Positions 7,124 through 12,246 of a DNA stretch of 64,000 nt are shown here, piece after piece. Within the stretch, counting starts at the first letter, position 1. The number at the start of each line of letters is the position of its first letter. Origin of the DNA: an uncultured Armatimonadota bacterium (GTDB taxonomy: Bacteria; Armatimonadota; Fimbriimonadia; Fimbriimonadales; Fimbriimonadaceae); assembly GCA_903899015.1 (NCBI GenBank), contig CAIUHP010000097.1:1-64000 (forward strand). Direction: 5' to 3'. The notes under the pieces are model-generated. The model worked only from the letters and a program-made list of their open reading frames with translations. It searched no databases and had not been told where the DNA came from. The translations under genes were made by a program, and so were the position numbers.

Positions 7124-10060
7124 CTATTTAGTGACGCTCCAATCTTGACTCACGGTGACAGCACCGACGGTCAATTCGAGTTTGTACTTGCCGATTGGGA
7201 TGTAGGTAGCGCGTTGTGCTTCAAATGGATCAACGAGGGCTTCATCGCCTTTCTTGAGTTTGCGCTTTGTAATCACGATCGGCTTTTGAGACGTTAACTC
7301 CAAGTCAAACGAAAGGTTGTTAAATCCTCGAACAGCGTTGAAAGAGGTCTCCTTCACGACCTTACCGTCCTTTGACTTGATTCGAATGACTGCGGCACCA
7401 GGTTCTTTGGTCCAAAATGTTCCTGTAACCTTAGGTGGTCGTGGGGGGGCCGTATCCCACTTTTCGCGTCGATCATAGCCCCAAGAGCTAGAGTGCGTCA
7501 CGTCATCTACGGAATCCAGCTTCAAATCCTTCTTTCGTAGGTCTGGCGTAATACTCAACACTCGATCCAAAGGCAGCACCCAAATGCTGCGCGCGTGAGT
7601 GGCAATAACCAGTTCCTTGTCGCGAGCTTGGATCGCTAAGTCATGTACGGGAGTGTTCGGTAAGCCACCTTTGAGTATTTCCCACTTTTGACCACCGTCG
7701 AACGAGATGTAGACTCCCATATCGGTACCCACATACAGAACACCGCTTTCATTAGGATCTTCCCGAACGACATTGATGGTTTCGTTTGGCAGATTGCCAA
7801 CGATCGACTTCCAGGTTTTGCCTTGATCGGTCGATTTCCATAGGTAAGGCGCAAAGTCGTCCTCTCGATAGCCAGATTGTGAGACGTAGACCGTATTCTC
7901 ATCCCATTTACTCGCTACAACGCGAGAGACCCACTTATCAGGCGCGGGAGTTAGAATCTTTGTCCACTGATAACCGCCATCAGGAGTTACCTGAACATTT
8001 CCATCATCACAGCCAACGTAGATCAGACCAAAACGTAGAGGGCTTTCGCTTACATCCTTGATCGTGGAGAAAGGCACATTGCCGTTCGGAATATTCTTGG
8101 TCAGATCCGGGGAAATGGGTTTAAAATGCCGGCCCTGATCGAACGATCTGTACAACCTTTGAGCACCAACATAAATAATATCGGAATCATGGGTTGAAAT
8201 CAGGATCGGTGAGATCCAATTGAATCTCATTGCGGGATCGCCTTTTGGAGCAGAAGGTCGAGCGCTGTTTTGCTCGTTTGTTACTTGGTTGATTCCGGTG
8301 TGCTCACCGAACTGTGACGCGACGTAAACGAAGTCTCCGTCTTTCCTTGGATCAACGGCAACTGCGCTTCCGTCACCGCCCCCAATAGCCTTCCATTGGT
8401 TGACATCGCTCACCCCGGGACGATAGGAGCTTGGTCCCTTGAGCGTTCCGTTATCTTGCAAGCCGGTGTAGATGTTGTACGGGACTTTGTTATCGAGGGC
8501 AAGAGTGGTTGCTTGGCCCACCGCAAGGTTGTTAAGGTGCTTAATCGTTGCCCCACCGTCGTAGGAGAGATATAGCCCACCATCGTTACCCACCCACACT
8601 TTTCTTGGGTCTCGCGGGTCGTTCCATACTGCGTGATAATCCACGTGAGCCCGCTGGAAAACGGATGTCCAATTTTTGCCACCGTCCTTTGAATGAAGCA
8701 AAGGAAGCCCCATAACGTAAACGTCATTGGCATCGCTTGGGTTGACAGATACTTTGCCCCAGTAGTAGCCGCCAAATGGGCCGAATTGACCGTGGTCGGT
8801 TCGGTACCAAGACTTTCCAGAGTTGTCGGTACGATAAAGTTCTGCGCCGACTTGAGTGCCAAATAGATTTGGAGATTTCTTGGCGAACCGGGCAATTAAC
8901 TGAGCGACCGTGAGTTTCTTGTCTTTAATCTGTTTGAGGACGTCATCCGTGTTGATTTCAGGCTCGAAACCGCGCATGAAAGTTTGGAGCTTCGACTTAT
9001 CAACTTCTTGAATCGTATCATCGTCTAGGAGCGAGAACCTTCGAGGAGTCAAACGTCCAGTGGGTACTTTCTCGTCGGCGTCCGCCCAATCTTCATCTTC
9101 GGCCTGGTTGTCTACAAAGGCGTAAACCGTCTCGGGATGGGATGCGCAAATGGAAAGACCAATTCTGCCCGCAGGGTCACCGCTCGGAATAGTTGGCATC
9201 TTCGCCCAAGTCTTCCCACCATTCACTGACTTATAAACGGCGCTTCCTGGACCACTTTCCACGAAGTCCCACGATTTTCGGTCTCGCTGCCAAAGGCTCG
9301 CATAGATAGTATCGGGATTCTTTGGATCCATTGCCATATCGACGGCCCCAGTGAACTCGTCTTTCTTTAAAACCAGATCCCACGTCTTACCGCCATCAAC
9401 GGTTTTATAGACTCCTCGTTCCGCGTTCTGTGAGTAAAGATGACCTAGAGCAGCGACGTAAACGATCTTGTCGTTCTTCGGATTGATGAGGATTTTGCCG
9501 ATATGATGGCTTTCAGGGAGGCCCATCCAAGTCCATGTTTTGCCTGAATCGATGCTCTTAAAAACGCCCGTTCCCGCGTAACTGGTTCTCTGACTGTTCT
9601 CCTCTCCCGTTCCAACCCAAATCGTCTTGCCGTCGTTGCTAACCGCTACCGCTCCGATTCCAAAGGCACTTTGATTACCAAAAAGCGACGTCCAACTTTG
9701 TCCATCATCATCCGTCCGATAGAGACCACCGGTGGCGAAGGCCACATATACTTTGCTTGGATCGCCCAAAGGAGCGACAATGACGTTCACGCGTCCGCTT
9801 TGAACCTCGGGGCCAACACTTCTCCAAGGAATACCGTTAAAAGGGCTGTCCGATTCTAGTTGAAGATGCTGTTTGTAGCCTTTCAGCCATTCGTCGGCAG
9901 ACATTCCCCTGACTATTTTCGGATGGAATGTTCGACGTTGCTCATCCTTAGTGACGCGTTTTGAAGGAGCATCTTGACCTTCGTCAGGGTCCACTTGTGC
10001 AAAAGCATTTGATGCCAGGCTTGCGAACGATACGAGCAACAACCAATGGTAAGAACGCAT
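7124..10060 (-). CDS. Exported VPS10/sortilin-like BNR-repeat propeller protein
   Basis: A 978-residue protein with a clear signal peptide (MRSYHWLLLVSFASLASNAFAQ). From about residue 75 to 800 it has repeated Asp-box motifs (S/T-x-D-G-G-x-x-W, e.g. VYKTVDGGKTW, SFDGGQKW, SKDGGKNW), as in the WD40/YVTN/BNR-like proteins often annotated as glycosyl hydrolases. The last 170 residues form a beta domain (TGTFWTKEPGAAVIRIKS), likely a fibronectin/FlgD-like sandwich. The catalytic activity of this family is not established, so a binding or structural role outside the cytoplasm is equally likely. Monocistronic, with a hairpin just downstream. Confidence 0.88.
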   Translation of the reverse strand: MRSYHWLLLVSFASLASNAFAQVDPDEGQDAPSKRVTKDEQRRTFHPKIVRGMSADEWLKGYKQHLQLESDSPFNGIPWRSVGPEVQSGRVNVIVAPLGDPSKVYVAFATGGLYRTDDDGQSWTSLFGNQSAFGIGAVAVSNDGKTIWVGTGEENSQRTSYAGTGVFKSIDSGKTWTWMGLPESHHIGKILINPKNDKIVYVAALGHLYSQNAERGVYKTVDGGKTWDLVLKKDEFTGAVDMAMDPKNPDTIYASLWQRDRKSWDFVESGPGSAVYKSVNGGKTWAKMPTIPSGDPAGRIGLSICASHPETVYAFVDNQAEDEDWADADEKVPTGRLTPRRFSLLDDDTIQEVDKSKLQTFMRGFEPEINTDDVLKQIKDKKLTVAQLIARFAKKSPNLFGTQVGAELYRTDNSGKSWYRTDHGQFGPFGGYYWGKVSVNPSDANDVYVMGLPLLHSKDGGKNWTSVFQRAHVDYHAVWNDPRDPRKVWVGNDGGLYLSYDGGATIKHLNNLAVGQATTLALDNKVPYNIYTGLQDNGTLKGPSSYRPGVSDVNQWKAIGGGDGSAVAVDPRKDGDFVYVASQFGEHTGINQVTNEQNSARPSAPKGDPAMRFNWISPILISTHDSDIIYVGAQRLYRSFDQGRHFKPISPDLTKNIPNGNVPFSTIKDVSESPLRFGLIYVGCDDGNVQVTPDGGYQWTKILTPAPDKWVSRVVASKWDENTVYVSQSGYREDDFAPYLWKSTDQGKTWKSIVGNLPNETINVVREDPNESGVLYVGTDMGVYISFDGGQKWEILKGGLPNTPVHDLAIQARDKELVIATHARSIWVLPLDRVLSITPDLRKKDLKLDSVDDVTHSSSWGYDRREKWDTAPPRPPKVTGTFWTKEPGAAVIRIKSKDGKVVKETSFNAVRGFNNLSFDLELTSQKPIVITKRKLKKGDEALVDPFEAQRATYIPIGKYKLELTVGAVTVSQDWSVTK

Positions 10061-10389: not shown

Positions 10390-11160
10390 TCACGCTCGCT
10401 GAATCGTTCGATCACGATCTGAAAGGAGGCGAACCGCGATTATCGCAACAAAGGCGGTGGCTAGAAGAATTCCGGAAAGCAGAACAGCTTTATCGAGGTC
10501 CGATTCAAAACCCAAGTAGATTGCGATCGGCATGGTTTGAGTCTTTCCGACCAAATTTCCAGCGAAAAGAATGGTCGCGCCAAATTCTCCTAGCGCCCGA
10601 GCCCAACTTGTAATCGCTCCACTTGCCAGGGCACGGACACAGACTGGCAACGTTATTCTTGCAAATAATGCAATGGGCGAAGCTCCATCAAGCGCGGCGG
10701 ATTCTTCGATATCTGGGCTAACGTTCTGGAAAGTGTTGATCCCCACTCGGATGTAGAAGGGGCTCGCAACAAAAGTTTGCGCCATTACGACCGCGGTTGT
10801 CGTGAAGGCAAAGTGAGTCGCCAAGACACCGTGCCTGCCAAAAGCCAAAAGGAGTCCGATACCAGCGGCAGCGGGAGGCAAAACGAGCGGTAAGTCGATC
10901 AGAACACTTACCAAACCGCGGAGCGGAAACCGAAACCTCGCAATCGCAAACGCTAGCGGCGTTCCTAGAAGTAACACTGCAACAAGGCTTGCCAGTGAAG
11001 TTGTGAAGCTAAGTTTGATCGCCTGTAGTAACTCAGAAGTTATCGAAGTGTTCGCACCAAACGCTCCCACTACAAGTGCATAGATGGGAACGACTAGAAA
11101 GACGAGGAGCGGTAAGCCATAGATTAGCCATACCCACCACCTCCCAACTATTTTTCCCAT
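10390..11160 (-). CDS. modB: Molybdate ABC transporter permease ModB
   Basis: A 256-residue inner-membrane permease with about six membrane segments. The coupling (EAA) loop is readable as EESAALDGASPIALFARITLP (about residues 155-175), followed by the typical SWARALGEFGATILFAGN and KTQTMPIAIY blocks of molybdate/tungstate permeases. It forms the channel for oxyanion import, driven by a ModC ATPase. It starts 3 bases after the modA stop, so modA-modB are co-translated. No modC follows; the next genes are a tiny ORF and the BNR protein, so the ATPase must be encoded elsewhere or shared. Confidence 0.93.
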   Translation of the reverse strand: MGKIVGRWWVWLIYGLPLLVFLVVPIYALVVGAFGANTSITSELLQAIKLSFTTSLASLVAVLLLGTPLAFAIARFRFPLRGLVSVLIDLPLVLPPAAAGIGLLLAFGRHGVLATHFAFTTTAVVMAQTFVASPFYIRVGINTFQNVSPDIEESAALDGASPIALFARITLPVCVRALASGAITSWARALGEFGATILFAGNLVGKTQTMPIAIYLGFESDLDKAVLLSGILLATAFVAIIAVRLLSDRDRTIQRA

Positions 11161-11163
11161 TGA

Positions 11164-12246
11164 TTACCTTATCGTTACCTTTCGAAGCCATTGAACCCAA
11201 GTTTTAGGAGAAAGTTGTGGGAAGATGGCCTGAAAGTTTCCATCTCGAGATGGAACGATATAAAAGTATTTGCTTCGTAAACCGCTAATTTTCAATTCGA
11301 CCGAATAATCATCCGCACCGGTTAAGGTTATCACGGCCCCTTTTTGCCGCAACCAACTTCGAACATCGTAGCCTAAATACGACTTGGTCGACTGGTGATC
11401 TTTTGCAGTAAATCTGGTGATAACCATCGTGCCCGCCCCAAACGGAACTTCTTGGTGGTTGATTTCTAGCACGGGAGGATGGGATGGGACCAGGGGCGAA
11501 CCGAATCCGAAACGAACAAACGTCTTTTGACTCTTTTCATTGAACAGGAATTTTTGGAAGTCTTTGCCGATTTTTCCAAAGGTAACCGACGGATAGCGAG
11601 CCAACACTTGGAACGCATTAGGGATCGGTATGGCTCGTACTTTGCCTCTCGCAGCAAGAACGTCGGTCATATAGACAATCCCGCCATCTGCCTCGCCAAG
11701 TTCTACTTTGGCAAGTACGGACCGAACGTCTTGCTCGCGAGAAACGATATGCTGACTCATTCGGGCTCGCCACATCTTGCCTAACCGCCTCTCGGCAGAA
11801 TCGAACATTGCGAGTGTGTAATTCCCAACTGGAACCGCCTTGTCCGCGATCACAAGGTGTTCCAGGCTATCAATATTCTCGAATCGGTGTATTCGACGAT
11901 CGTCAGAAGGAACAACGAGAACTAATGAATTCGTTGCAAAAGTCCTTTGTGACCCTGGATTCATCGAAAGCCCTTTCAGCGGCTCGCGGCCAGCGCTTAG
12001 GAATACGTCAACGTTTGCTCCGTGTCGAATTTGAGCGGCTAGTTGTTGGGAGCCACCGAAATTGATCGAAACACTCGTTCCGGGATGGGCGAATTCAAAC
12101 TGTCGAGCAATTTCGGTGAGAGATTCCTTAAGCGAAGCGGCCGCAAAGACGGTATAGGTCTGCGCTTGAACACAGTGGCCCCCTGCTAGCGCAAGGAAGA
12201 ATGCGACGCAACGTTTTGTTCTCACATGCAAACTGTACTTGATCAT
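11164..12246 (-). CDS. modA: Molybdate-binding protein ModA with extra C-terminal sulfite-oxidase-like domain
   Basis: A 360-residue periplasmic protein, about 100 residues longer than usual ModA. Signal peptide residues 1-28 (ends CVQAQ). The ModA core (30-250) shows YTVFAAASLKESL, the N-lobe oxyanion site with Ser, SINFGGSQQLAAQI, ADVFLSA-type and GEADGGIVYMTD blocks. Residues about 255-360 are not ModA. They contain YLGYDVRSWLRQKGA, TGADDYSVELKI and KTWVQWLRKVTI, which match the pattern of the molybdopterin-binding sulfite-oxidase fold (DGYS... and WVKWL... signatures), without its Cys ligand. The extra domain could be a cofactor-domain relative used for binding. Start ATG at 12246 has no Shine-Dalgarno. 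Confidence 0.85.
   Translation of the reverse strand: MIKYSLHVRTKRCVAFFLALAGGHCVQAQTYTVFAAASLKESLTEIARQFEFAHPGTSVSINFGGSQQLAAQIRHGANVDVFLSAGREPLKGLSMNPGSQRTFATNSLVLVVPSDDRRIHRFENIDSLEHLVIADKAVPVGNYTLAMFDSAERRLGKMWRARMSQHIVSREQDVRSVLAKVELGEADGGIVYMTDVLAARGKVRAIPIPNAFQVLARYPSVTFGKIGKDFQKFLFNEKSQKTFVRFGFGSPLVPSHPPVLEINHQEVPFGAGTMVITRFTAKDHQSTKSYLGYDVRSWLRQKGAVITLTGADDYSVELKISGLRSKYFYIVPSRDGNFQAIFPQLSPKTWVQWLRKVTIR

Follow-up and report, generated by a model that had tools for sequence, protein, structure and literature searches.

The modA gene of the window, a 64,000-nucleotide stretch of DNA from an uncultured Armatimonadota bacterium of the family Fimbriimonadaceae, encodes a ModA protein followed by a C-terminal domain that is predicted to adopt the sulfite oxidase (SUOX) fold. 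We consider this domain to be probably a non-catalytic accessory module, which would have arisen by fusion of ModA with a partner from a molybdenum locus and which would act in the capture, hand-off or sensing of molybdate.

A ModA protein with an additional C-terminal domain

The fusion gene (11164-12246, minus strand) is an open reading frame of 360 amino acids, and its layout, which the earlier note had suggested be sought in other genomes, recurs in five others of the family. The N-terminus of the encoded protein carries a hydrophobic segment that ends in VQAQ and, judged by eye from this terminus, the protein is probably secreted. The ModA domain (residues 36-250; 11497-12141, minus strand) is intact. 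Residues 36-247 match the TIGR01256 modA profile over its full length (model positions 1-217 of 217, E 6e-36, 124.4 bits against a cut-off of 62.5), and S38, S66, A137, V174 and Y192, which we take to be the positions of the oxyanion ligands in E. coli ModA, are invariant in an alignment of the six fused proteins. AF2 modelled the full 360-residue protein with a pLDDT of 85.6; the ModA domain lies mostly above 90 and finds ModA structures as its Foldseek matches.

Since the full-length profile match ends at residue 247 of 360, about 105 residues lie past the ModA fold, in agreement with the earlier note. Ordinary bacterial ModA resembles the fusion protein in matching the whole of TIGR01256 and in having modB adjacent, but its own end corresponds to the point where the extra domain of the fusion protein starts. 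In archaea, ModA/WtpA proteins exceed their bacterial counterparts in length (structures of 290-320 residues), which could suggest that the additional residues merely form part of a ModA lobe; this reading, to which we assign a negligible probability, is refuted by the position at which the profile ends, by 14 ModA proteins of the family that terminate at about the same place, and by the SUOX fold predicted for the tail on its own.

A predicted SUOX fold for the C-terminal domain

The C-terminal domain comprises residues 257-360 (11167-11478, minus strand) and, when modelled alone by AF2, reaches a pLDDT of 86.3. Foldseek searches with this model rank PruR structures first (E 2.4e-4 to PruR 7kom), and VIA-align superimposes it on PruR 7kp2 with a Z of 10.8 (rmsd 2.5 over 104 residues) and on chicken sulfite oxidase (3hbg) and SoxCD with a Z of 10.5. 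The best structural matches are all of the sulfite oxidase fold, the first unrelated chain appearing at a Z of 3.9. The comparison of a predicted tail structure with SUOX domains, proposed in the earlier note, thus returns the sulfite oxidase fold, and the models predict that the tail folds separately as such a domain. The two motifs on which the note had based its assignment are indeed located where it placed them, GADDYSVEL at residues 310-318 (11293-11319, minus strand) and TWVQWLRKVTI at residues 349-359 (11170-11202, minus strand), and in the alignment they fall on DGY and (V)KWL, the corresponding motifs of SUOX-type domains.

Searched as a single sequence against Pfam, NCBIfam and the PDB, the tail gives nothing significant, and its relatives were revealed only by the six-row profile and by the fold. 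In hhalign comparisons the six-row profile scores 72.1 (P 2.6e-12) against a set of short free-standing SUOX-like proteins, 45.2 against PruR and 41.0 against canonical enzymes, compared with at most 18.8 for 60 column shuffles against the free-standing set and 21.7 for the best shuffle anywhere. PruR is also found by sequence, with an E of 0.015 using all six copies and 0.002 using the three less derived ones. Because the sets differ in size (11 free-standing proteins, 3 PruR and 7 canonical enzymes; row SA_Lep, which had been translated in a wrong frame for the joint alignment, was left out), the relative ranking by profile score is a guide only, and as such it suggests that the closest relatives of the tail are the short free-standing proteins and PruR, and not the catalytic enzymes. 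The profile score, the five further genomes that share the extension and the SUOX-like AF2 model together bear out the fusion of ModA to a SUOX-related domain that the earlier note had envisaged.

The tail lacks the catalytic parts of Moco enzymes

In a joint alignment, the six tails retain the DxY, N, P and WVxWxR elements, whereas the Mo-ligand Cys, which is present in the aligned canonical proteins, is missing from all six, and the PLxxxxGxP loop of the enzymes is deleted throughout. Because the Mo-ligating Cys is absent and the conserved cofactor-side loop is lost, the tail is, on the evidence of this alignment, not a canonical Moco enzyme, and the designation "molybdopterin domain" in the earlier note does not hold in the sense of a domain that houses Moco. 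The catalytic domains of sulfite oxidase, SorT, SoxC and YedY (PF00174) share the fold (Z about 6-10.5) and the C-terminal (V)KWL motif with the tail, but bind a Cys-ligated Moco and have longer loops; none of the six tails reaches the 24-bit cut-off of PF00174, the best attaining 18.4 bits (E 0.0016). It is this resemblance in fold and motif that could speak for a tail with Moco-dependent oxidoreductase activity, a reading rendered highly improbable by the missing Cys, the deleted loop and the length of about 104 residues, compared with the 169 positions of the Pfam domain.

Comparison with the pterin-binding protein PruR

The best structural match of the tail is PruR (7KOS, 7KOM, 7KP2, 7RKB), a periplasmic pterin-binding protein that likewise is exported and has a SUOX fold without the Mo-ligand Cys. 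Pterin is contacted in PruR by Tyr104 and Trp160, and Asn102 is replaced by Asp in PruR groups C and D (PMC13259868). Y314 of the tail, invariant in the six copies, aligns with Tyr104, and D312 aligns with Asn102, so that the tails carry the Asp of groups C and D. By contrast, the Trp160 column is occupied by Q, R, H, M, M and N, with W350 and W353 near by, and the loop following DGN is deleted, so that the pocket of the tail would be smaller still than that of PruR. PruR is further distinguished by an extra loop and a DcpA-type partner gene, and is not fused to ModA (PMC13259868); a gene for a DcpA-type periplasmic domain is not adjacent to the modA fusion gene at the window locus.

These features bear on the possibility that the tail is a PruR-like sensor, in which a periplasmic pterin, or a molybdopterin fragment, would occupy the reduced SUOX pocket and tune ModA to cofactor supply. 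Such sensing is possible, given the closest solved structures, the retained Y314 and the Asp at position 312, but we do not favour it and regard it as unlikely, because the Trp160 position is lost. In addition, the best-scoring free-standing relatives adjoin molybdenum genes, not sensor kinases, beside which the two sampled PruR proteins are encoded.

Free-standing relatives are often encoded beside molybdenum genes

The short free-standing SUOX-like proteins (for example WP_124874670.1) are secreted, are annotated as "molybdopterin-dependent oxidoreductase" and provide the best profile match to the tail, with which they share the DGY, dG...LxVP and WV/YV...I pattern. They differ in being encoded by separate genes, in being about 35-50 residues longer and in keeping the PLxxxxGP loop. 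The copies of Deinococcus and Nostoc resemble the tail in having no Cys at the Mo-ligand position, whereas those of Caballeronia, Pseudomonas and Embleya have a Cys near it. The lead query for these proteins was a hand-written family consensus; the conclusions rest on the retrieved sequences.

In several species these genes adjoin modA/modB or other molybdenum genes, as the tail adjoins ModA. In four of five sampled genera with readable neighbours, which are examples and not a survey, the free-standing relatives belong to loci for molybdenum or Moco. A single gene run of Deinococcus psychrotolerans reads modA, Mop/TOBE, SUOX-like (WP_124874670.1) and modB. The Nostoc gene lies beside modD, Mop proteins and a MoeB-like gene, the Caballeronia gene is found with di-Mop, NifQ and a ModE-type regulator, and that of a Pseudomonas plasmid is located beside a TonB receptor, moaA and nar genes (narIJH). 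The link to molybdenum is not universal, since one Rhizobium copy and the copies at five sampled Armatimonadota loci are not adjoined by mod genes; the proposition that the free-standing relatives always reside in mod loci is accordingly rejected. No SUOX-like gene was seen at two other Deinococcus modA loci. We note that the D. psychrotolerans modA is preceded by a gene (L057, 2659-3789) for a protein with an HTH and a substrate-binding-like domain, likely a one-component molybdate regulator.

Distribution and history of the fusion

ModA is present in 20 of the 85 genomes of the family, of which 6 carry the tail and 14 end near residue 250. The tailed proteins are those of the window genome, G018, G022, G032, G021 and G007, five of which belong to genus g1 and one to g10. 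Searching 291 Armatimonadota genomes with the tail profile recovered the same six and a single partial match (E 1e-4), a SUOX-like reading frame; across these 291 genomes a domain of this type was never found free-standing, and the fusion was confined to the same family. Contig scans of other genomes returned no relative with the single tail sequence and only two loci already known with a three-row alignment, and on account of these queries the spread of the tail outside the phylum is poorly constrained. A tblastn search of plasmids with the tail gave no match. Among the ModA matches, those in G001 and G027 (L014 and L015) each contain one internal stop (TGA and TAG, respectively), which may lie outside real genes.

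The fused proteins do not form one clade, as the ModA tree forces at least three changes; the tail may have been gained once and then lost repeatedly, or gained several times. Its absence from 14 other ModA proteins of the family, including that of the close, syntenic locus in G020, indicates that it is dispensable. This patchy presence, together with the loss of the cofactor loops and the fast divergence of the tail (26-37% identity in the C-terminal domain versus 37-52% over the whole protein), would suit a decaying or purely structural add-on that binds no ligand and is kept as a spacer or docking surface. We nevertheless find this reading doubtful, given that eight tail residues (G292, D312, Y314, N337, P343, W350, W353 and R355) are invariant over six diverged copies, that the frame is open in six genomes and that the predicted fold is intact.

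Proposed role in molybdate uptake

The loss of the catalytic parts, and the frequent location of the nearest free-standing relatives beside molybdenum genes, suggest that the tail is probably accessory to molybdate uptake and not an enzyme. For such an accessory domain we envisage that modA became fused with the gene for a small exported SUOX-fold domain, and that one polypeptide thereby keeps what the mod operon of D. psychrotolerans has as two proteins. The tail would then act periplasmically, sharing the substrate stream of ModA, and would most likely be a non-catalytic module for ligand binding or docking. The reduced SUOX/PruR pocket, lined by D312, Y314, N337, W350, W353 and R355, may bind a small ligand, either a pterin or an oxyanion, and the tail could help or gate the capture of molybdate by ModA and its delivery to ModB. 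Weighing against this role are the dispensability of the tail, its low identity relative to the whole protein, the variable Trp160 position and the free-standing relatives that have no mod genes as neighbours.

More tentatively, short Cys-less SUOX-fold proteins might constitute an unrecognized accessory to the uptake of molybdate by bacteria, encoded as separate proteins in some mod loci and joined to ModA in this family, where the domain would bind molybdate or a pterin and either hand molybdate on to ModB or gate its passage there; we consider this generalization possible, if somewhat less likely than the role proposed for the tail itself. No report of a ModA-SUOX fusion was found in a search of a partial collection of papers. 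New domain fusions of molybdoprotein families were presented in a 2018 genomics survey of molybdenum utilization, and ModA is not among them (PMC6147048). No role is known for many of the short proteins that bear the annotation "molybdopterin-dependent oxidoreductase", and they may serve molybdate uptake, not redox catalysis; the ModA fusion and the copy inside a modA-modB operon offer a direct lead to their function. In addition to catalysis with Moco and pterin signalling by PruR, the SUOX fold may have a third use.

Genomic context

The neighbours of the fusion gene are modB, a DinB-like gene and uvrB. The gene for the molybdate ABC permease, modB (10390-11160, minus strand), lies directly downstream and scores above the cut-offs of both TIGR02141 and TIGR01581. 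No protein of the window genome reaches the TIGR02142 cut-off for ModC, and modAB (10390-12246) stands without modC, so that the transporter must rely on either a general ABC ATPase or a divergent ModC. In G021, the fused modA (L033, 5983-7065) has no adjacent modB; the same contig carries the best modB of that genome, at a distance of about 83 kb. Beside modB in the window, positions 7124-10060 encode a secreted protein of 978 residues with repeated D.GKTW (sortilin/BNR-like) motifs, relatives of which occupy the corresponding place in G018 and lie beside modA in G022.
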